From contig JAJFVK010000008.1 of NCBI GenBank assembly GCA_021371795.1, positions 124,001-188,000 on the forward strand: 64,000 bases of DNA. The letters run 5' to 3'. The stretch is from Planctomycetaceae bacterium. Its GTDB lineage: Bacteria; Planctomycetota; Phycisphaerae; Sedimentisphaerales; UBA12454. Made by a program: the position numbers and the translations under genes. Below are positions 29,319-44,813 of the stretch, one piece after another. Under the pieces are notes generated by a model. The model saw only the letters and a list, made by a program, of their open reading frames with translations. It ran no database searches and was not told where the DNA came from. Position 1 is the first letter of the stretch, and the number at the start of each line of letters is the position of its first letter.

Positions 29319-29321
29319 CGA

Positions 29322-29420
29322 GTGAAGATTGAAAAATGAAGAATGAAGATTTAAGGAACGCCTTTGGCGTGATATTTATGAAAATCTTCAATCTACAATC
29401 TACAATCTTCAATATTCAAT
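29322..29420. repeat. Inverted heptad module B with ACGCC hairpin
   Basis: Left arm of heptads (GTGAAGA, TTGAAAA, ATGAAGA, ATGAAGA), a central hairpin ACGCC-TTT-GGCGT (29358-29370), and a right arm of complementary heptads (ATCTTCA, ATCTACA, ATCTACA, ATCTTCA). The arms can pair imperfectly over about 30 bases. Confidence 0.8.
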
Positions 29421-29433
29421 TTAAAGGTGATTT

Positions 29434-30678
29434 ATGCCAGTATTTCAATATGAAGCTTTGGATGCCAATGGCGGCGAAATAAAAGGCCAGATTGAGGCGT
29501 TGAGCGGCGATGAAGCGTTGAGCAAGATTCGCAATATGGGCTATTTCCCCACAAAACCACCGAAGGCAAAAGGCGGCGTGCGGGAAAAATTAGCCGCTGC
29601 GGCAAAGCCCAAGTCTCGCAGAGGTTCCGGCGGTAAAGTTAAAGTTAAGATGCTTACGCAGTTTGCTCGCCAGCTTTCGACTTTACAGGATGCCGGTCTG
29701 CCGATTCTGCGTTCGCTTAGAATTCTCGAAGAGCAGCAAAAGGGCGGAACATTCAGGCGTGTTATCGGTTATGTCGCCGACGATATTGAAAGCGGCTCGA
29801 CGTTATCCGAAGCGCTTGGCAAATTCCCAAAGGCTTTCAACAGATTATTCGTCAACATGGTGGCTGCCGGCGAAGTCGGCGGTGTGTTGGATGTCATTCT
29901 CGCAAGACTTGCCGATTTTATGGAAAAGGCGCAGAAGCTCAAAGCGAAAATCAAAGGCGCGATGGTTTACCCGCTCGTAGTTTTGGGCGCTGCGTTTGCT
30001 ATCGTTATGGGTTTGATGATTGGCGTTATTCCGAAGTTCAGCCAGGTGCTTAAAGATATGACCGGCGGCGAACTGCCCGCGCTTACACAGTTTCTTATAA
30101 AGATCAGTAACTGGCTGGCGTTTCAATACGGCTGGGCGGTAATGCTTGCGGTTCCGTTTATTATGATGTTTACCCTGCGAATCATCAGAAAATTCGGCGC
30201 AGGCAGATACATCCTTGACGCCATCAATCTTAGACTGCCGGTCGTCGGCAAAATCGTTTACAAAACTACCGTCGCGAGATGGACAAGAACGCTTGGTACG
30301 CTAATCAGCGCCGGCGTTCCGATTCTTGAGGCGATTAATATTACAGCCGATACATCAGGCAACGAAGTTTATGCGGCTATGCTTCACAAAGTACACAACG
30401 GTATTCGGCAGGGCGACACGTTCGCCAATCCGCTGCGTCAGTCGAAAACGGCTGACGGCCTGGTCGTCAATATGATTGATGTCGGCGAAGAGACGGGCGA
30501 TATGGACAAAATGCTTTTGAAAATCGCAAACAACTTCGACGAAGATGTTGATGTGCTGGTCGGTTCGCTTATGAGTTTGCTCGAACCGATTATGATTCTC
30601 GTACTCGGAGGCGTTGTCGGTACTATCGTGCTGGCGATATTCCTGCCGATGGTCAAAATTATTACATCGCTGATGTAA
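29434..30678 (+). CDS. PilC/GspF inner-membrane platform protein
   Basis: A 414-residue platform protein. The N-terminus MPVFQYEALDANGGEIKGQI is characteristic, followed by two GspF domains (about 75-195 and 275-395), each with hydrophobic helices and the conserved QLSTLQDAGLPILRSL and TRTLGTLISAGVPILEAI repeats. It anchors the ATPase to the growing pilus or pseudopilus in the inner membrane. It has a good ribosome binding site (AAGGTGAT) and lies 115 bases after ATPase 2. It is the only platform protein in the window, although there are two assembly ATPases. Confidence 0.94.
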   Translation: MPVFQYEALDANGGEIKGQIEALSGDEALSKIRNMGYFPTKPPKAKGGVREKLAAAAKPKSRRGSGGKVKVKMLTQFARQLSTLQDAGLPILRSLRILEEQQKGGTFRRVIGYVADDIESGSTLSEALGKFPKAFNRLFVNMVAAGEVGGVLDVILARLADFMEKAQKLKAKIKGAMVYPLVVLGAAFAIVMGLMIGVIPKFSQVLKDMTGGELPALTQFLIKISNWLAFQYGWAVMLAVPFIMMFTLRIIRKFGAGRYILDAINLRLPVVGKIVYKTTVARWTRTLGTLISAGVPILEAINITADTSGNEVYAAMLHKVHNGIRQGDTFANPLRQSKTADGLVVNMIDVGEETGDMDKMLLKIANNFDEDVDVLVGSLMSLLEPIMILVLGGVVGTIVLAIFLPMVKIITSLM

Positions 30679-30679
30679 C

Positions 30680-30762
30680 GAAAATTAAAAATCAAAAATT
30701 AAATATCAAAATTGTGGAAGTTTAAAATTAAATATCTCTGTGAGCTCTGTGTTCTCTGTGGC
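30680..30762. repeat. Heptad array followed by exact 9-bp CTCTGTG array
   Basis: 30682-30716 is nearly identical to the array at 21821-21855. Then CTCTGTGAG, CTCTGTGTT and CTCTGTGGC follow in exact 9-bp phase (30736-30762). Different word families are thus joined in one spacer. Confidence 0.8.
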
Positions 30763-30834
30763 TATTAAAAAAGAGAACTCTGGGGCTAAAAAACGTTAAC
30801 AGTAATAATATTATTAATAGGAAAGGCAACTAAA

Positions 30835-31884
30835 ATGGAAACGAAAAGAAAATCAGGTTTTACAATCGTAGAATTGCTGACCGTTATGGCAATCATAGCT
30901 ATTCTAATGGGCTTACTTCTGCCCGCGATGCAGGCGGTAAGAAAACTGGCTAAAGATGTAAGCCAAAAAGCGCAGTTCAAAACTATCGAAGCCGCTCTCG
31001 AAGCTTATGCCGGCGAAAACGGTACGTATCCGGAATCGTCAGTATCTCCTACAATTGTTACAAAGGCGACTGTTGGTGCTCACAAGCTTGCTGAAGCTTT
31101 AGTCGGAAGAGACATGCAGGGCTTTGACCCGAAATCAAGCTGGGATGCGGACACCGATAGACTTGGTACGGCTAACACTGAAATTTATGCAAACAGAGAG
31201 GCTCCGCAGAGTTCTGAACAGGTTGAAGTTGATGCGTCTTTGAAGAGAAGACAGGAAGTGTATCTTAAGATACAGGATGTTGAAGCATATCAGGTTAATC
31301 AATTATTCAATAATTGCGGTGTTGTTTATCCCGGCAGCCTTGATAGTATCGGTACAGTAAGTTCAACTTATTATTCGGCACCGGTATTAACAGATACCTA
31401 TCGTGCTAAGAAAGTTACTTTGCCGAATGGTACAAATTTACTGGCAGGTACGCCGATTCTTTATTATAAAGCTGACACCAGGCCTGATTCAGCTATCATA
31501 GCCGCAAATGGCCAAGAAACGGCATTTCCTGATACGCAGAAGGCCACCAATCGTGGAACTGACGATCTTGCTCTGACGCCTTCAATTGATGCCATTGCAG
31601 ATTATATATATGATGTCAATGATAACGATGATCTTGTTAAGTTGTATCAAATGATGAAACCGACAGCTGCAAACGTACACTATTTTGATTCACAACATGA
31701 AGAGCAAGTTATTGTTAGAGGAACATCGCAGACAGTTAATGGTTTGTGGTTATTCTATGATACTATCACAAATGAAAAAATGGCACAGCCGACTCCGTAT
31801 AATCGCAACAGCTACATCCTGATTTCAGCAGGTTATGATGGCATTTACGGTACAAAGGATGACATCTATAACTTTGAAAAATAA
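30835..31884 (+). CDS. Pseudopilin-like prepilin 1
   Basis: A 349-residue protein with a class III prepilin signal: basic leader ending SG, cleavage before F, glutamate at mature position 5 (GFTIVELLTVMAIIAIL) and a hydrophobic helix. The long soluble domain contains a C-terminal ISAGYDGIYGTKDD motif similar to the calcium-binding end of GspG major pseudopilins. It is longer than typical GspG (about 140). After peptidase processing it should assemble in the periplasm. It has a good ribosome binding site (GGAAAGG) and is the first of six prepilin-type genes. Confidence 0.87.
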   Translation: METKRKSGFTIVELLTVMAIIAILMGLLLPAMQAVRKLAKDVSQKAQFKTIEAALEAYAGENGTYPESSVSPTIVTKATVGAHKLAEALVGRDMQGFDPKSSWDADTDRLGTANTEIYANREAPQSSEQVEVDASLKRRQEVYLKIQDVEAYQVNQLFNNCGVVYPGSLDSIGTVSSTYYSAPVLTDTYRAKKVTLPNGTNLLAGTPILYYKADTRPDSAIIAANGQETAFPDTQKATNRGTDDLALTPSIDAIADYIYDVNDNDDLVKLYQMMKPTAANVHYFDSQHEEQVIVRGTSQTVNGLWLFYDTITNEKMAQPTPYNRNSYILISAGYDGIYGTKDDIYNFEK

Positions 31885-31900
31885 ATAACGGTTAGTAATG

Positions 31901-32037
31901 CCGCAAAGGCACAAAGATGCGAAATGATTTAAGATTGAAAAATGAAGAATGAAGATTTAAGGAACGCCTTCGGCGTGATATTTATGAAAATCTTCAATCT
32001 ACAAGCTTCAATATTCAATTTCTTTGTGTCTTTGCGG
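31901..32037. repeat. Doubly nested inverted word module C
   Basis: Outer arms CCGCAAAGGCACAAAG (31901-31916) and CTTTGTGTCTTTGCGG (32022-32037) are complementary except one base. Inside are heptad arms of the ATTGAAG type (31932-31958 and 31985-32019) and at the centre the hairpin ACGCC-TTC-GGCGT (about 31963-31975). Inner parts match module B almost exactly. Confidence 0.85.
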
Positions 32038-32057
32038 CTGAAAATAAGGGTGCAAAA

Positions 32058-33011
32058 ATGATGACCGAGAAAAAATATTGCCGTAAAAATGGTTTCACGC
32101 TCGTTGAGATTCTGACTGTTGTTTTCATAATCGCGATTCTACTTGGCGTTCTTATGCCGGCTATGAATATGGTTAGAAAAACCGCAAAGGACGTTCAGGA
32201 AAAAGCGCAGATGGCAAGTATTGACATCGGCTTGAATCTTTATAAAAACGAAAGCTGCTTCGGCGATTACCCGCAGTCTCGCGGTTATAACGAAACCGGT
32301 GCTGCGAAGTATTGCGGCGCACAAACGCTTTCTGAAGCGATGTTCGGTCAGGATTTACTCGGCGTTGACCCGAATACAAGTTATGCAGTTGGTACAGGCA
32401 CGCCTCCTTATGCTCCTGAATATGATTTCGGCAATCCCGCATATAACCTTGATAACAGAAAAGGCCCTTATCTCGACAGAACACATATCAGTGTTATGAC
32501 TGCGCAAAATATTTATGATTCGAGTGCGTCAGCTATTGAGCCTGATTTATTTTTGATTTGTGATGTATATGCACGGGCGAAAAAATATGTAACACTGCCG
32601 AATGGAAACTCAAAGAAGGTGGCCATATCTACGCCGATTTTATATTACAAAGCAAACATTTCAAAAACTAACAATAATGATTTAACAGATACTGGTACTG
32701 ACAACAATATTTATGACAGTCAGGACAATGAAAAATTAATAGGATTGAAATCTCTGGGTGTGGAAAAAACCAAACTTAAGCATCATTTTGACCAAACTTA
32801 TACAGAAGAACGGCAAGAAGGTGCAACAGTAGTAACATTAAATGGCAGGCAAATTTTCTATGAATTCATCTCTGACCCTATGACTTCAACAACAACGCCA
32901 TTAATAAACCGTCCCGTAAGACCGGATAGTTTTCTTTTGATATCGGCCGGCAGCGATGGCCTGTACGGCACGTCCGACGATATCTGTAATTTCGAGCCTA
33001 ACATTGAGTGA
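32058..33011 (+). CDS. Pseudopilin-like prepilin 2
   Basis: A 317-residue relative of prepilin 1, with signal NGFTLVEILTVVFIIAIL (cleavage after G, E5 present), a shared pattern MPAMNMVRKTAKDVQEKAQM after the helix and the C-terminal motif SAGSDGLYGTSDDI. The soluble domains diverge, suggesting duplication then specialisation. ATG 32058 has AAGGG upstream; a second ATG follows immediately. Its spacer to gene 1 is the nested repeat module C. Confidence 0.86.
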   Translation: MMTEKKYCRKNGFTLVEILTVVFIIAILLGVLMPAMNMVRKTAKDVQEKAQMASIDIGLNLYKNESCFGDYPQSRGYNETGAAKYCGAQTLSEAMFGQDLLGVDPNTSYAVGTGTPPYAPEYDFGNPAYNLDNRKGPYLDRTHISVMTAQNIYDSSASAIEPDLFLICDVYARAKKYVTLPNGNSKKVAISTPILYYKANISKTNNNDLTDTGTDNNIYDSQDNEKLIGLKSLGVEKTKLKHHFDQTYTEERQEGATVVTLNGRQIFYEFISDPMTSTTTPLINRPVRPDSFLLISAGSDGLYGTSDDICNFEPNIE

Positions 33012-33017
33012 GTACTG

Positions 33018-33112
33018 ATTTAAGATTGAAGATTGTAGATTGAAGATTTGTGGAAACGCCTTTGGCGAATCTTTTTTATTCTTCATTATTCAATCTTCAT
33101 TCTTAAATCCTT
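33018..33112. repeat. Inverted heptad module D
   Basis: Left heptads GATTTAA, GATTGAA, GATTGTA, GATTGAA; centre AACGCC-TTT-GGCG (33055-33067); right complementary heptads such as ATTCTTC, ATTATTC, AATCTTC, ATTCTTA. Same architecture as module B. Confidence 0.8.
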
Positions 33113-33126
33113 CAAAAGTGTGATTT

Positions 33127-33693
33127 ATGTTAAAAACAAAACAGTCTGGTATGACGTTAATCGAGATAATGGTCTCGGTGCTGATAGTCGCTATTCTCGC
33201 GGCCGGTCTGTTTTCCGTCAGCGGCTACATCGATACGCAGATGAAGATTAAAAGTACCGAATCGACGATTCATCTTCTCGTTGCCGCTGTTGAACAGTAT
33301 CATGATTTTTACAAGGCATTCCCGGATGTAAATTCGACATCTTACGTGGGTGAATACCCAAATGGTAAATATGATAAGGATGCAAATGGTGTCAAAGATG
33401 CGAATTATATTGAAAAACTGTACTATAAATTAACGCTTGCTCCTGACGCCAAAAAGATTCTCGACCAGATAAACAGAAAGTATGTTAAGGATTCTGATAA
33501 AGATTCCGGAGGCAAACCCGCACCGGATAAAAATCCTGAAATCGTTGACGCATGGGGTAGAAGTTTAAGATATATATATGAAAAGAAAATAAATGCCAAT
33601 TTTCCGGAAATTATTTCCGCCGGTCCGGATAAAGATTTTGGCGATGGTGATGCCAAAAAAGCAGAAGACAATATCAGCAGTAAAAAACTTTAA
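33127..33693 (+). CDS. Pseudopilin-like prepilin 3 (GspG-like)
   Basis: A 188-residue protein with signal QSGMTLIEIMVSVLIVAIL (cleavage G/M, E5 present). The soluble part contains AVEQYHDFYKAFPD and, near the end, DAWGRSLRYIYEKK and ISAGPDKDFGDGD, close to the GspG arrangement (conserved DxWG and SxGPDG-type calcium site). It is the closest match to the GspG major pseudopilin here and the shortest of the group. The start lacks a good ribosome binding site. Confidence 0.87.
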   Translation: MLKTKQSGMTLIEIMVSVLIVAILAAGLFSVSGYIDTQMKIKSTESTIHLLVAAVEQYHDFYKAFPDVNSTSYVGEYPNGKYDKDANGVKDANYIEKLYYKLTLAPDAKKILDQINRKYVKDSDKDSGGKPAPDKNPEIVDAWGRSLRYIYEKKINANFPEIISAGPDKDFGDGDAKKAEDNISSKKL

Positions 33694-33697
33694 AATA

Positions 33698-33794
33698 GTG
33701 AAGCGTATCTTGTGAAGAGTATCTCGAATTTGCTTCACGCTTCACGAAATACGAGATACAAATAAATAGTGTTTATTCGTGTTAATTCGTGGTT
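33698..33794. repeat. GTGAAGC inverted heptad module E plus decamer tail
   Basis: Heptads GTGAAGC, GTATCTT, GTGAAGA, GTATCTC on the left; complementary GCTTCAC, GCTTCAC and GAGATAC on the right (to 33760). A tail of TTTATTCGTG and TTAATTCGTG decamers (33771-33790) runs into the next gene's start. Its main part is close to the reverse complement of module G. Confidence 0.8.
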
Positions 33795-34568
33795 AATAAA
33801 AGAAAACATAACGCTTTTTCTCTTGTGGAGCTTCTGGTAGTTCTGGGGATTATCGCTGCGCTGGCTGCGATTGCTATCCCTGCGATAAAGGCGATGCAGA
33901 AGTCTTATGATTCCACAGGCGCCGATGGTATGATTAGCACTGCTCTTTCGACCGCAAGAACGATTGCCATCAGCAAGCAGAAATACGTCGGTGTCAGATT
34001 TCAGAAAGCTTATGATGTGAACAACGTGATTGATGCAGACCAATATATGATTTTTATTATCAATGATGAGGATATGGGAACTCTTACTGACGCATTTCGA
34101 GCGGTTGAAGGTTATAAACCGATGAAACTGCCGGCAAATAGCGGTATAATGGATTTGAAAGTTGGAAATACCGGTGTTGATATAAAGGCAGATGGGATGA
34201 TAAATACTAACGATGCGTTGACGGACACAACGACCTTTTCGATAGTTTTTTCGCCTGCCGGAAAAGTTGCCGTGCACGATGTCCAAACTCGCAATAAAGA
34301 TGGCGAAACTGATACAAGCGATTCAAGTAAAGATGAAATTTTCAATACTAAAAATAATGCCGAGGCTGGTAAAGCTTTATTTATGCAGGATTATACGGCA
34401 AGAATCGATGGTCTTGGCAAAGAACAAAGCCGAAAAACTTTTATTATATATGATCGTGAAAAATTCAAAAAGATTGATGCTGATAAACGGTATGAGGATT
34501 ATTTAAAAAATTTAAGCTTAAAGCCTTGTACTCTTAATCCTTATACCGGAGCGATAGTCCGAAATTGA
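33789..34568 (+). CDS. Pseudopilin-like prepilin 4 (GspH-like)
   Basis: A 259-residue prepilin-type protein with the helix AFSLVELLVVLGIIAALAAI. The residue before the cleavage site appears to be alanine (HNA/FSLVE) where glycine is usual. The start is taken as GTG 33789, lying inside the decamer repeat GTTAATTCGTGG; no ribosome binding site is visible. The soluble part has the long strand-rich form of GspH/FimT minor pseudopilins. The stop codon falls within the following heptad array. Confidence 0.82.
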   Translation: MVNKRKHNAFSLVELLVVLGIIAALAAIAIPAIKAMQKSYDSTGADGMISTALSTARTIAISKQKYVGVRFQKAYDVNNVIDADQYMIFIINDEDMGTLTDAFRAVEGYKPMKLPANSGIMDLKVGNTGVDIKADGMINTNDALTDTTTFSIVFSPAGKVAVHDVQTRNKDGETDTSDSSKDEIFNTKNNAEAGKALFMQDYTARIDGLGKEQSRKTFIIYDREKFKKIDADKRYEDYLKNLSLKPCTLNPYTGAIVRN

Positions 34569-34650
34569 AGATTGAATAATGAAGATTGAAATTTTAAAAA
34601 TTCTGAACCATCCTCAAATCTTCATTCTTCTATCTTCCTTCTTCAATTTA
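34566..34650. repeat. ATTGAAG heptad module F
   Basis: Heptads ATTGAAG, ATTGAAT, AATGAAG, ATTGAAA on the left; complementary CTTCATT, CTTCTAT, CTTCCTT, CTTCAAT on the right, without the GC-rich centre seen in B-D. The stop TGA of the preceding gene (34566-34568) is part of the first unit. Confidence 0.78.
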
Positions 34651-34670
34651 TTATATGGCTGTATTTTAAA

Positions 34671-35450
34671 ATGAAATCAAAACTGAAAAATAACGGATTT
34701 TCATTAACCGAAGTCTTGATGGCAGCGGGGATTTTGTCTGTCGGCATAATGCTTGTCGCCACGATGTTTCCGGTCGCGATTTATCTTACGACTGTCGCTT
34801 CTGAAAAGACGATGGCCTCGATTGTCGCCGATGAAGCCTTCGCCAAGATGCGGCTCTACGGCATCGAGGATATGAATCAAACAAAGATAGATGATCTAAC
34901 GAAGACATTCGGCTCGTACTGGAAAGATATGAACGATGTAATCGATTTCGATGAATACATGTATCCGTCTTCCGAGGGTAATTGGCAGTATTGTTGGGTT
35001 CCGTTATACAAAAAACTAAACTCCGACCCCTGCGATATGCAGTATTTGGTCAAACTGTACATTGCCCGCAGAACAAATCCGAACCAGACATTCTTCAGGG
35101 ATGGTACGCTTACGAGCACTTCTCAAAGGCCGACTCCTATACGTATTGGTGTTGGCTATATTTACCCAAACAAGTTGAAGATACAATGGGACAATGGGGG
35201 TATTGAAAAATGTATTAATCCTCCGCCTTCGACGGCGATTGTTGACGATGCTTCGGGAAGAATATTCCGCGTTGTCAGCAGGGATGCGAAAGATGCAAAT
35301 ACTGTTATACTCGACAGAAGTTGGGACAGCGATATAGGCGTTCCTAATAATGTTTGGGTTTTGCCTGCCGCTGTGATCAACAAGGAACCGTCCGGAAAAA
35401 ATCCAGACATTGAAATTTACCAGAGAATCATAGACTTCAGGAAAAAATAA
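34671..35450 (+). CDS. Pseudopilin-like prepilin 5 (PilV/GspI-like)
   Basis: A 259-residue protein starting MKSKLKNNGFSLTEVLMAAG (cleavage G/F, E5 present) with a methionine-rich helix (GIMLVATMFPVAIYL), the pattern of PilV/GspI minor pseudopilins. The soluble domain is rich in beta-strand-type sequence and ends with a helix-like tail. GspI-type proteins form the pseudopilus tip with GspJ and GspK, which are encoded next. No ribosome binding site is visible in the A/T-rich stretch before ATG. Confidence 0.84.
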   Translation: MKSKLKNNGFSLTEVLMAAGILSVGIMLVATMFPVAIYLTTVASEKTMASIVADEAFAKMRLYGIEDMNQTKIDDLTKTFGSYWKDMNDVIDFDEYMYPSSEGNWQYCWVPLYKKLNSDPCDMQYLVKLYIARRTNPNQTFFRDGTLTSTSQRPTPIRIGVGYIYPNKLKIQWDNGGIEKCINPPPSTAIVDDASGRIFRVVSRDAKDANTVILDRSWDSDIGVPNNVWVLPAAVINKEPSGKNPDIEIYQRIIDFRKK

Positions 35451-35451
35451 A

Positions 35452-35552
35452 GTGAAGCGTATTTCGTGAAGCGTGAAGCGAATTCGAGATACTCTTCACG
35501 AGATACAAGTAAATAGAAATAATTAGTGTTTATTCGTGTTAATTAGTGGTTA
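35452..35552. repeat. GTGAAGC module G (inverted relative of E) plus decamer tail
   Basis: Contains GTGAAGCGTATTTCGTGAAG (from 35452) then GAATTCGAGATAC and CTTCACGAGATAC. This matches the reverse complement of module E with few changes, while the TTTATTCGTG/TTAATTAGTG decamer tail (35529-35549) is in the same orientation as in E. Confidence 0.8.
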
Positions 35553-35557
35553 ATTAA

Positions 35558-36361
35558 ATGAAAAAAGGATTTACATTAACAGAACTGCTTGTTGCGGTTG
35601 GTTTGCTCGTGGCTGTGCTTGCCGCTTCGACGATGATTTTTCATTACGCGATTGAAGCGCAGCGAACCGCTATGGCGACCGCCGAGATTATGCGAACGCT
35701 CCGCGCCGTTACTGACCAGCTCAACATCAACCTCGCCGGCCTGCGGAAAGACGGCTATCTTATTTTGTACTCCAATACAATACCTTCCGACGGGAATCAC
35801 TGCGACGCTCTGTATTTCTTCAGCGATGGCGATTTCCAATCGACAGCGGATGACAAAGTGCGTTCTAACATTGCCCGTATTTACTTCGGCGGCGCGAAAA
35901 ATGATGTGAATAATCTCCTGCTCGATATGAAGCTTTTAGTGCCGAGTAAATTGATGGATGCTAATGATTGGTCGAGTAAAAGCTTTGTAGAATGTCAGCA
36001 AAATATTTCTACTTTTGAAGACCCAAACGACAAACTAAATTACTCTGGCAGCAGACCGGAATTTGACGCTAATCATCCGGACAATCTTTTAGCACAGGGT
36101 GTCAGCAATCTAAAAATTACCTGGACGTATGACAGTAGTAAATGGCATACCGCCTCTGGCGTACGAAAAATAGAATGGTACGGACTGCTTCCTAATTATG
36201 GCGATTCTTCTTTTGAGTCAGCCGGATACAGAGCCGTATGGACGCCGTCGAATCCGGATAAATGGCCGGCCGCGTTACGCTTTGAATTTACGATTTCTGA
36301 TTCGAGAAAAATCATAAAAGATGGCAAAAGATTTGAGCATATAGTTTATATTGGACAATAG
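35558..36361 (+). CDS. Pseudopilin-like prepilin 6 (PilW/GspJ-like)
   Basis: A 267-residue prepilin: MKKGFTLTELLVAVGLLVAV (cleavage G/F, E5 present) then AASTMIFHYAIEAQRT, the usual GspJ/PilW N-terminus. The soluble domain contains LYFFSDGDFQS and ends LRFEFTISDSRK, typical of GspJ-type proteins. It sits between the GspI-like and GspK-like genes, the normal order for the tip complex. The stop TAG is part of the next spacer's heptad array. Confidence 0.85.
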   Translation: MKKGFTLTELLVAVGLLVAVLAASTMIFHYAIEAQRTAMATAEIMRTLRAVTDQLNINLAGLRKDGYLILYSNTIPSDGNHCDALYFFSDGDFQSTADDKVRSNIARIYFGGAKNDVNNLLLDMKLLVPSKLMDANDWSSKSFVECQQNISTFEDPNDKLNYSGSRPEFDANHPDNLLAQGVSNLKITWTYDSSKWHTASGVRKIEWYGLLPNYGDSSFESAGYRAVWTPSNPDKWPAALRFEFTISDSRKIIKDGKRFEHIVYIGQ

Positions 36362-36390
36362 GGTATAGGGGACAGGGAATAGGGTATAGT
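36357..36390. repeat. GGTATAG heptad array (module H)
   Basis: Units CAATAGG, GTATAGG, GGACAGG, GAATAGG, GTATAGT in exact 7-bp phase fill the whole spacer between the GspJ-like and GspK-like genes. The first unit supplies the upstream TAG stop. Confidence 0.8.
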
Positions 36391-36391
36391 T

Positions 36392-38959
36392 ATGGAAAAA
36401 AATAAAAAACAGGGTTCGGCTCTTATCATGACAATCGTGCTGACGGTTTTGCTCGCGTCTGTCGCGGTTATGTTCGTTGCCATTGCAAGAATGGACAAAG
36501 CCTCGACAAGCAATATCTTCGACAGCAAAATGCTCGACACCGCCGCGCAGTCGGTTATCGAAATAATCAATAAGGAACTTGTTTACGATACCCCCGGCGT
36601 TGCCAAGCAGAATCCTCATATTTATGAGGCAAATTCTCCGCAGTATTTCGATTACAAAGATTATCCAGACCCCTGCGACGCGTGGCTGGCAAGCAGCGAA
36701 CCGTATTGCGATTCCAATGATTTGTCAGACAAGAACGCGTACAAATGGCGGCAAATCAGCGATGTTACCGGCTATTTGGCTCGCCATAATTTCCAGACGA
36801 GAAACATAAATGTTAAACCTGTCGGCTTGAGCACACTGGATGTAGTCAAAGAATACCCCATTTTCGGAATGGACCCCAACGGCCATTTTCTCAAAGATGA
36901 TTCTCCAACAAACATAGCAGTAAATGGCGTTTCTGCCGATGCTGATGGCGATGGCATTGCCGATGCGAAATGGTTTGAGATTTCAAATCTTCGCACTCCG
37001 ACCGGCAGAGTCTTCGCCGCCGTGAGAATCATAGACAATGGCGCAATGGCAAATGTCAACACCGCATACAAATTAGACCCAAATGTTACCGACGCAAACA
37101 AAATCGATGGCTCATCGCAGATGCACATTAATCTCGCTGGCCTGCTGAAAAGCGGTGATGATATTGATGTTATGCACACAGCACGTTGCGGCAGCCGCCC
37201 AACAAATAATGACACGGATTTCCAAAACGATGTTGTCTGCGATTTTAATAATTTACCGCTAAGCGGATATTTGCCTTTCGATTCATCAGACGAACTCGAA
37301 CTTCGCTATCGTTTCTGTATCAACAGCAAATTTAAAAGCAGATTTGAAGTTGAATGTAACCAAACAACTAATGCCGCGATTGACAAGGGCAAACTGTATA
37401 ACGCATCCAGCGAATTGGGGCTTGAGGATTGGACAATAAGAGTTACAGATTATATGGACCCCAACGCCGACCGCAGACATTTGCTCACGACGTATAATTG
37501 CGACAGGCTCATCGACCCCAACGGCAATAAAATGCTGAACATCAACGAAGCGAGTGCGATGTCGCTTTATAAATTATTCAAAACCTGTATGGATTCCAAT
37601 TATGCCGGCCAGATTGCCGTGGACATTATTGATTCCCGCGATGCCGATTCAGACGTCAACGTTCTTACCGTCAATGGGCACACTTTCTACGGCTTCGAAA
37701 AGCCCTGTATTTACATCTCCGAAATTGCATACAAACAGGTTAAAAAAGCACCTCTGCCGCCTACATATCCCAAGGTGTATCAATCTTACGCTATTGAGCT
37801 TTACAGGCCTTATGGCACTGATATGAACGATACTTGGTATATATATGTTGAAGGTGAACCAAATGGCATTGAAATAAAATGGCTGGGTTCGAGTGAATAT
37901 CACGCTATAAGAATGAACAACTCATCTGCTGATATTAGTTATGACTCTGGCACTTCTTTGCAGAATATTAAGTACGACCCGCCGTTCTTTTCAAATAACA
38001 AGAAAATCTTCCTTATGCGTGAAATAAAAGGCAAGAGGTTGCTTGTTGATTTTAAAAAGGTTCCCGTCGGTTTTATACCTGATTCTAATAATACCAGTAA
38101 TCTTACCACATCTCTTGAACGAGACATTACAAAGTCAAAATGTATCAGGCGTATATGGCAAACCACTTTGGATAACGATGACAAACATACTCTCGGCAAG
38201 GCGAATGAATTTTTCAGCACCGACCCAAACAGCGTTCAGGCGTATCCTGCCGATAAACCTTTTACCAGTGTCGGCGAAATCGGAATGATTTTGCGGGAAG
38301 CTCCTTATTCTGTTTTTGATGTGAATAATCCGACTATACCGACCGGCATACTTGGGCTTAATACTACTCCTGTCAATTTGATTAAAGATTGGGCAGTTAA
38401 GGTTGATATTGCCGATGCGAATTTGTCTCCGATATTCAATTACCTTACAGCCGTTGACACTCGCCGAACGAATGAAACTCGCGTAAAGGGAAGAATAAAC
38501 ATTAACACCGCGCCGTTCAGCGTAATCGCGCAACTGCCGTGGGTTTCGCAAAGACCCGGCAGTTCCGCTGATGTAAATCTTGCGCAAGCAATCGTTGCAT
38601 ATAGAGACAGCAAAGACGTGAATGGTTTTAAGAATATTGGCCAACTGATGCAAGTTCCCGGCATAACTCATTATGCATCAGATACCAACGATTTGAAAGG
38701 TTTCCCAGACCTGACAACCGACAGCCCGACGACTGGCGACGGTGCGGAAAATGATTACGAAGAGCGTGATGTGATTTTCGCGCGAATCAGCAACCTCGCG
38801 ACCGTCCGCAGCGATATTTTCACTGCGTATATTTTGGTTCGCGTCGGAACTGACGGCCCGCAAAAGAGATACATCGCGATTTTGGATAGAAGCGAGGTTA
38901 AGAAACCGACCGACAAGGTAAAAATCCGCGCATTCCAATACGTTCCCGACGCAAGATAA
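36392..38959 (+). CDS. Large GspK-like tip pseudopilin
   Basis: An 855-residue protein, far longer than usual GspK (about 320). The N-terminus KKQGSALIMTIVLTVLLAS has the prepilin-like cleavage site and helix without glutamate 5, as is typical of GspK. An inserted region includes DADGDGIADAKWFE, a calcium-binding-like motif. The C-terminal third has the helix-hairpin-helix-type pair around GRININTAPFSVIAQLPWV and LAQAIVAYRDSKD, typical of GspK. It would cap the pseudopilus. A hairpin terminator follows 13 bases after the stop, so the operon likely ends here. Confidence 0.83.
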   Translation: MEKNKKQGSALIMTIVLTVLLASVAVMFVAIARMDKASTSNIFDSKMLDTAAQSVIEIINKELVYDTPGVAKQNPHIYEANSPQYFDYKDYPDPCDAWLASSEPYCDSNDLSDKNAYKWRQISDVTGYLARHNFQTRNINVKPVGLSTLDVVKEYPIFGMDPNGHFLKDDSPTNIAVNGVSADADGDGIADAKWFEISNLRTPTGRVFAAVRIIDNGAMANVNTAYKLDPNVTDANKIDGSSQMHINLAGLLKSGDDIDVMHTARCGSRPTNNDTDFQNDVVCDFNNLPLSGYLPFDSSDELELRYRFCINSKFKSRFEVECNQTTNAAIDKGKLYNASSELGLEDWTIRVTDYMDPNADRRHLLTTYNCDRLIDPNGNKMLNINEASAMSLYKLFKTCMDSNYAGQIAVDIIDSRDADSDVNVLTVNGHTFYGFEKPCIYISEIAYKQVKKAPLPPTYPKVYQSYAIELYRPYGTDMNDTWYIYVEGEPNGIEIKWLGSSEYHAIRMNNSSADISYDSGTSLQNIKYDPPFFSNNKKIFLMREIKGKRLLVDFKKVPVGFIPDSNNTSNLTTSLERDITKSKCIRRIWQTTLDNDDKHTLGKANEFFSTDPNSVQAYPADKPFTSVGEIGMILREAPYSVFDVNNPTIPTGILGLNTTPVNLIKDWAVKVDIADANLSPIFNYLTAVDTRRTNETRVKGRININTAPFSVIAQLPWVSQRPGSSADVNLAQAIVAYRDSKDVNGFKNIGQLMQVPGITHYASDTNDLKGFPDLTTDSPTTGDGAENDYEERDVIFARISNLATVRSDIFTAYILVRVGTDGPQKRYIAILDRSEVKKPTDKVKIRAFQYVPDAR

Positions 38960-44224: not shown

Positions 44225-44268
44225 CCCAGGGCTTTGCCCTGGGCTAATATGTTATACCCTTTCAGGGT
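44225..44268. repeat. Twin hairpin repeat CCCAGGGC/GCCCTGGG and ACCCT/AGGGT
   Basis: An 8-bp perfect stem with TTT loop followed 12 bases later by a 5-bp stem with TTC loop. No T-run, so not a standard terminator. Confidence 0.75.
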
Positions 44269-44813
44269 TGTAAGAAAAAGTAATTTAAGTGATAACTACC
44301 GGCGTTCCACATTCTGTCTACTGTGTTCTGTGTTCTATTTTCAAAATGCATGTCGGAGCCATTTGGGCGGAGATCCCCGAGTTTTTAGGAATTTTATTTT
44401 ACAATCCCCCATGCGGGGACCTTGAAAATAAAAATCAGAGGGGATAGCATTTTTAAAAGCTGTGTAGCATTTTTAAAATGTTAGTAGCATTTTAATTTTT
44501 TTTCGCACCTTGCGAACTCACTTTCGCGCAATGGCCTGAAATCCGCAATATTTCCTTCCCTAATAGTATGGCCGTGCACAAATTTACGAAAAAAATGGAA
44601 ACAAATGACGTTTTCTGGTCGTGGATTAAGAAAACAAAAAATTTTGCGCAATTTTTCCCTTGCGCAAAATGACGAATTTGCGCAGGCGTAATTCTGAAAA
44701 ATCGTCATCGGCGAGCCGGCCGCGCGTGTAAGTTATTTTGACTTGAATAAAAGCGATATACCAATTACACTATTAAGTTCAATAAATCTCTTTTAAGTAT
44801 TATTGGAGTCATA

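Follow-up and report, generated by a model that had tools for sequence, protein, structure and literature searches.

Between the genes of an operon for PilC/GspF, six prepilin-type proteins and a GspK-like protein, a 64,000-nucleotide stretch of a Planctomycetaceae genome (contig JAJFVK010000008.1, positions 124,001 to 188,000; hereafter the window) carries spacers built from arrays of degenerate 7-base words, in part paired as inverted arms. What are these spacers, and do they serve the operon in which they stand? A sequence-only reading had proposed that they are conserved modules that set pseudopilin ratios. The comparisons described here point elsewhere: the spacers are likely gene-less (solo) relics of S23-type and GxxExxY-type intergenic elements, rather than a control device specific to this operon.

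Association of word arms with two gene families

Genes of the PF05635 family (S23 or 23S-rRNA-IVP, four-helix-bundle proteins) and GxxExxY genes (PF13366) were found by simple open reading frame rules and home-made profiles. Inverted flank similarity was defined as a Smith-Waterman score of at least 15 between the two flanks of a gene. PF05635 genes were present in all 13 genomes of the family to which the window genome belongs. Inverted arms of 7- or 8-base words flanked 34 of 54 PF05635 genes compared with 18 of 894 control genes, whose local module density was unmatched (odds ratio 83, p=3e-35); by subset, they flanked 15 of 29 genes within the family and 17 of 25 in other phyla. When a sample of the phylum unselected for modules was used, arms were detected at 12 of 23 PF05635 genes and at 1 of 55 neighbouring genes (p=3e-7). 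Furthermore, PF05635 was found in 19 of 20 genomes chosen solely for GATTGAA inverted modules, and in none of 14 control genomes. The arm words of the family PF05635 genes comprised GATTTTG, TAGTCGC, GGGTATA, GTGAAAA, GTTTTGA, the TAACTGA class and 8-base words; the TAACTGA-class word flanks the gene in relative G004 (L341) and occurs also in G003 and G010. A complete element from relative G002 is predicted to fold so that the gene forms a loop closed by the arms.

In relative G010, gap 7 of the same operon (pp5-pp6) holds a complete GxxExxY unit between inverted CACTAAGG-type arms, and the flank test was therefore made on two gene families. Inverted word arms of period 8-10 were detected at 15 of 29 GxxExxY genes (p=3e-16 against the same 894 controls). 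We propose that a full element would consist of one gene between two inverted arms of degenerate short words, in two classes: an S23/IVP-type four-helix-bundle gene with arms of 7- or 8-base words, and a GxxExxY (PD-(D/E)XK-like) gene with arms of 8-10-base words of the CCACGAA, CACAGAG and CACTAAGG types.

Architecture of the operon spacers

The operon and its spacers, s1 to s8 (29319-36391), are as follows.

29434..38959, + strand: host operon, with PilC/GspF (29434-30678), six prepilin-type genes and a GspK-like gene (36392-38959)
29319..29433, + strand: s1 (GspE2-PilC), ATTGAAG heptad module, left array 29320-29355, right inverted array 29383-29420
29358-29370, + strand: s1 hairpin, ACGCC-TTT-GGCGT
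30679..30834, + strand: s2, AAATTAA-type heptad array 30681-30710, then a truncated TTGTGGAA core
30736-30762, + strand: period-9 CTCTGTG array of s2, a GxxExxY-type word as in the flanks of GxxExxY genes
31885..32057, + strand: s3, ATTGAAG module 31926-32020 with hairpin 31964-31976
31900-31917 and 32021-32038, + strand: outer inverted pair of s3, GCCGCAAAGGCACAAAGA and TCTTTGTGTCTTTGCGGC, 8-base words enclosing the ATTGAAG module
33012..33126, + strand: s4, ATTGAAG heptad module, arms 33017-33046 and 33080-33109
33057-33067, + strand: s4 hairpin, CGCC-TTT-GGCG
33694..33791, + strand: s5, GTGAAGC/GTATC inverted composite and period-10 ATTCGTGTTA array
34562..34670, + strand: s6, ATTGAAG heptad arms 34562-34595 and 34616-34649
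35451..35557, + strand: s7, GTGAAGC inverted composite and period-10 ATTCGTG array
36357..36391, + strand: s8, array of GGTATAG heptads that overlaps the preceding gene's stop codon

pilC/gspF is preceded by a second gene for a GspE-like ATPase (GspE2). N_methyl matched the N-terminal prepilin motif of the six prepilin-type genes, with scores under the curated cut-off for the last two. The sequence-only reading had counted seven spacers from PilC to the GspK-like gene; with s1, which lies before PilC, there are eight. Lag periodicity was scored against 500 dinucleotide-preserving shuffles, the control that the same reading had called for. The 7-base arrays it described exceeded the shuffles in seven of the eight spacers, with lag-7 z of 6.3 (s1), 3.5 (s3), 5.3 (s4), 3.5 (s5), 4.1 (s6), 3.3 (s7) and 3.7 (s8); s2 was weak (2.2). 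Other periods were a weak lag 9 in s2 and lag 10 in s7 (z 3.2). The inverted arms reported for four spacers were confirmed by arm search in s1, s3, s4 and s6, and folding added s5 and s7. Of the three central hairpins, all were placed correctly to within one base: ACGCC of s3 begins at 31964, not 31963, and the s4 hairpin is present without the outer T, its stem being one pair shorter than described. The RNA-fold z values were -4.0 (s1), -0.8 (s2), -7.3 (s3), -5.4 (s4), -2.5 (s5), -2.6 (s6) and -3.4 (s7), with the strongest fold in s3, the nested module. As read from the sequence without a terminator scan, the hairpin is followed by no U-run in s1 and s3 and by a short U-run in s4. Between codirectional genes, the same cores are found either way round. 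Two of the spacers extend into coding signals: the TGA stop codon of the gene upstream of s6 (34566-34568) sits within the first repeat word, and the period-10 ATTCGTGTTA array of s5 provides the following gene with its GTG start codon (33789). No Rfam match was found in s1 to s8; the sole match in the window was an Acido-Lenti-1 RNA (RF01687) at 44225-44269 (42.9 bits).

Words and cores shared by full and empty forms

Three relatives (G002, G006 and G010) have a four-helix-bundle gene placed between pilC2, a second pilC, and a gene for a pseudopilin. Its ATTGAAG-word arms, for example GATTGAAGATTGAAAAATGAAGATTGAAGATT and AAAATCTTCAATCTACAATCTTCAATCTT, closely resemble s1, with alignment scores of 20-30 compared with a median of 8-9 and a best single value of 23 for control S23 flanks. 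In relative G007, a gene-bearing element (L361) and the empty module in gap 4 of that genome's operon are identical at 48 of 50 bases, among them the core GTGGAATCGCCTGCGGCGAT. The s8 word GGTATAG is also the arm word of a four-helix-bundle element in G005 (L339). In addition, words of the GxxExxY flanks occur in the outer pair of s3, the period-9 array of s2 and the period-10 arrays of s5 and s7.

These likenesses suggest how the spacers may have arisen. Both element classes would settle in gaps just after a stop codon and before the ribosome-binding site, and could nest in one another. The transcript of an operon insertion would form a long imperfect stem, a probable substrate of RNase III if rRNA intervening sequences (IVS) are taken as the model. 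Cutting would leave the reading frames intact, hence an insertion would be nearly harmless. We infer mobility and near-neutrality of the elements in the same way as RNase III cutting.

Dispersal of 7-base arrays in the window genome

The sample of the window genome comprised 834 kb, namely the window and 40 further stretches, of which 28 were picked for BLAST matches. Noncoding DNA contained 129 lag-7 arrays, whereas the remaining lags between 4 and 13 gave 0-8 arrays apiece; at lag 14, twice 7, there were 53. The density was 153 arrays per 100 kb of noncoding DNA and 2 per 100 kb of coding DNA, values inflated by the selection of stretches for matches; in the 12 unselected stretches, arrays occupied 13 of 112 gaps. 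There were 37 word classes. Among 35 paired arrays, 25 were inverted and 2 direct. Arrays started a median of 3 nt past the stop codon of the preceding gene, which 22 of 61 arrays overlapped. Matches to s1 were found at many sites.

Could the modules be dispersed palindromic repeats, similar to miniature inverted-repeat transposable elements (MITE) or repetitive extragenic palindromic (REP) sequences, moved by an unrelated transposase with the four-helix-bundle and GxxExxY genes as passengers? Like MITEs, the modules have terminal inverted repeats and many similar copies. A conserved asymmetric core is found in ~16 copies of the ATTGAAG family, orientation relative to genes is mixed, with 7 sense and 5 antisense, and divergent gaps are depleted of modules (6/85 vs 19/68 convergent), all of which favour this reading. 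However, each of the two gene families is tied to its own word class, and many different words accompany the same gene. The flanks of genes for REP-associated tyrosine transposases (RAYT) lacked modules, and G002 has 12 module matches without a Y1 transposase gene. We thus regard movement by an unrelated transposase as unlikely. A RAYT/Y1 transposase as the driver was likewise rejected, since the ends at Y1 genes differ from the modules and G002, which lacks a Y1 gene, still has modules; the palindromes at RAYT gene ends, which characterize REP systems, were not the modules. The Y1 genes observed (L103, L111, L093 and L112) share ends of their own, for example GGTGTCAGGAGTCGTTT and AAAAGGTGTCTGACACCTTTT, that are unrelated to the modules, and in G003 (L100, 1999-2330) tandem GTGGTTAGCCCCAYCA hairpins lie near a Y1_Tnp gene.

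The same operon in relatives

The operon was compared in nine relatives and was syntenic as far as the contigs extend. Contrary to the expectation that spacer architecture is conserved in related genomes, the orthologous gaps held different words or were ~20 bp or less. Gaps of one species were often most alike among themselves, in eight of eight cases in G004 and between s1 and s3 (93% identity over 97 bp) and s5 and s7 in the window, s7 being closest to s5 in all sampled sequence; the words switch between species. This combination of likeness within and change between species fits repeated insertion and local copying, not a conserved device. In gaps pp3-pp4 and pp4-pp5 of the operon in G001 (L082), inverted modules of period 8, not 7, were observed.

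Lag-7 arrays were present in all sampled genomes of the same family, mostly as a clear peak; the exceptions were G004, which was weak (3 arrays), and G011, in which lag 9 was nearly as frequent as lag 7. Five other samples from the order, class and phylum had 0-1 lag-7 array, and G036, from another family of the order, had six. The exact inverted ATTGAAG pattern matched only the window genome among 392 genomes of the phylum, because the pattern is too strict.

The arms were also examined for covariation. Permutation of right arms among modules revealed no more complementarity within modules than between them, both in the window genome and in three from Chloroflexota; it follows that individual base pairs of the stem are not being preserved. 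The earlier statement that the arms vary in sequence yet stay paired thus does not amount to covariation, and an RNA function acting through paired arms was rejected. Selection for stop codons was likewise rejected: with words of 7 bases (7 mod 3 = 1), arrays could close all frames, but words closed all three in 61% of cases compared with 71% in column-permuted controls. A polarity rule, by which the word reads away from the gene, was rejected as well: the strong bias in the window genome's own arrays (89:15) is accounted for by inverted pairing, and relatives did not show it (32:24).

These results bear on the proposal that the spacers are selected mRNA-processing or translation-insulating modules setting pseudopilin ratios. 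All eight gaps of the window operon are occupied, an unusual run given that the next longest in the own-genome sample is 3; in G004, G006 and G007, occupied gaps are likewise more numerous in this operon than outside it, and the predicted folds are stable. By contrast, words and hairpins vary between species, several relatives have gaps of ~20 bp or less, covariation of the arms is absent, modules are found across the genome and in many phyla, and the gaps most alike are those within one operon, in keeping with local copying. A ratio-setting device is, in our judgment, very improbable. Considering the good folds and the RNase III cutting of S23-bearing rRNA IVS (PMC4990558), a module may nevertheless possibly affect mRNA processing.

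Inverted heptads in other phyla

The pattern GATTGAAGATT-N15-45-AATCTTCAATC, sought in 84,980 species, was detected in at least 119 stretches, with ~0.5 to 4 chance matches estimated for the whole collection. The phyla among the matches listed included Chloroflexota, Desulfobacterota, Bacteroidota, Acidobacteriota, Planctomycetota, Verrucomicrobiota, Elusimicrobia, the candidate phyla radiation (CPR) and others, and 65 of 84 inspected sites among these matches were outside long reading frames. Vocabularies were specific to the genome: one Anaerolineae genome uses GATTGAA with GATTAAA, and another Chloroflexota genome pairs GATTGAA with GATTGAT or GATTAAT.

An alternative is that arrays are made in place, with no transposition, when replication slips or templated words are added at the edges of gaps. 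Heptads are over-represented in many bacteria (PMC4692102), the Chloroflexota genomes have unrelated module centres together with their genome-specific vocabularies, and arrays start close behind stop codons. However, one word and its core recur at many unlinked sites per genome, and arms flank specific gene families; we consider generation in place alone to be quite unlikely.

Several observations weigh against the interpretation as element relics. In Chloroflexota, word order differs from copy to copy and the centres are unrelated, a pattern that suits local word generation better than whole-element copying. Approximately one-third to one-half of PF05635 genes have no clear inverted arms, and several of the arms found are short or divergent. 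No transposase is linked to the modules: the ends are shared with S23-gene elements, S23 is no known transposase, and the Y1 genes have different ends. Mobility of the elements is putative, and the gene could be a passenger that landed inside existing modules.

Relation to known repeats and intervening sequences

Cyanobacterial short tandemly repeated repetitive (STRR) sequences are intergenic arrays of degenerate heptads in tandem (introduction of PMC4692102). The noncoding DNA of the window likewise has degenerate 7-base units in tandem; STRR are set apart by being described as tandem only. The earlier supposition that known heptad repeats are tandem only does not hold, since 70 to 75 inverted pairs of GGGAATC heptads are reported in Xanthomonas (PMC4692102). 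The GGGAATC and GGGGA(C/T)T heptamers of Xanthomonas and Nostoc (PMC4692102) resemble the window arrays in their period of 7, noncoding location, position near or overlapping stop codons and depletion in divergent gaps, whereas the window genome has many words, nested pairs and a GC hairpin core. The TAACTGA heptamers of Beggiatoaceae, cyanobacteria and Bacteroidetes (PMC4679880) are also intergenic heptads; unlike the window modules, they are direct repeats mostly just before start codons, with one inverted case only. REP and REPIN elements with RAYT (PMC3116915) are short, dispersed, intergenic palindromes as well, but the window modules have heptad arms and no RAYT link.

A close parallel to the full elements is the 23S rRNA IVS of Coxiella burnetii, which has an S23 gene, a 28-bp inverted-repeat stem and RNase III cutting, with tandem GACAGAT heptamers ahead of the gene (PMC4990558); these heptamers provide independent support for the link between S23 and heptads. 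As in rRNA IVS (PMC4990558), full elements in relatives and other phyla encode an S23/IVP protein, terminal inverted repeats closing a stem were found by arm search and predicted folds, heptamers lie beside the gene, and the gene is degraded in some strains. Unlike rRNA IVS, the window-type elements have many word arrays of several word lengths, gene-less copies dominate the sampled genome, and all window copies are gene-less and lie between protein genes instead of in a 23S or 16S rRNA helix; because of this location outside rRNA, we do not class the window modules as rRNA IVS. They resemble gene-less IVS in mRNA spacers and probably behave like them.

A wider reading is possible, and we put it forward tentatively: intergenic heptamer repeats (STRR, TAACTGA, GGGAATC and the window words) may largely be remnants of one widespread S23/four-helix-bundle element class, IVS-like in mRNA spacers and rRNA; GxxExxY elements would form a second class alongside it, built on 8-10-base words. 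Heptamer repeats, long reported and so far unexplained, would gain a testable identity as element ends, and the common S23 proteins, so far of obscure function, as the product of the element's gene; the same would apply to GxxExxY proteins and repeats of period 8-10. A link between S23 and the repeats would be one reason for the same words in unrelated phyla, and such spacers should be read with caution as regulatory elements of a host operon. In the open PMC literature, the two main papers on heptamer repeats, including PMC4692102, do not mention S23; an earlier description elsewhere is possible. Xanthomonas itself has an S23 protein of solved structure (XCC0516, PDB 2GSC).

Additional sequences were observed in the sampled stretches. 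A GTCATTTCGACCG...GGAGAAATCT element, presumably common in other phyla, is inserted at the centre of ATTGAAG modules at two sites (L034, 10043 and 19560). A ~22-bp hairpin, TCGAAGACCCCTTTGGGGTAGA, is inserted within single heptad words (L027, 9730; L043, 9744), and we take it to resemble small dispersed repeats of cyanobacteria. Near 16956 of L043, in the window genome, the 16S-like stretch GAGGAACGCCTGTGGCG is one base off the module core GAGGAACGCCTGCGGCG; this likeness is probably a coincidence, worth recording as S23 elements are known from rRNA.

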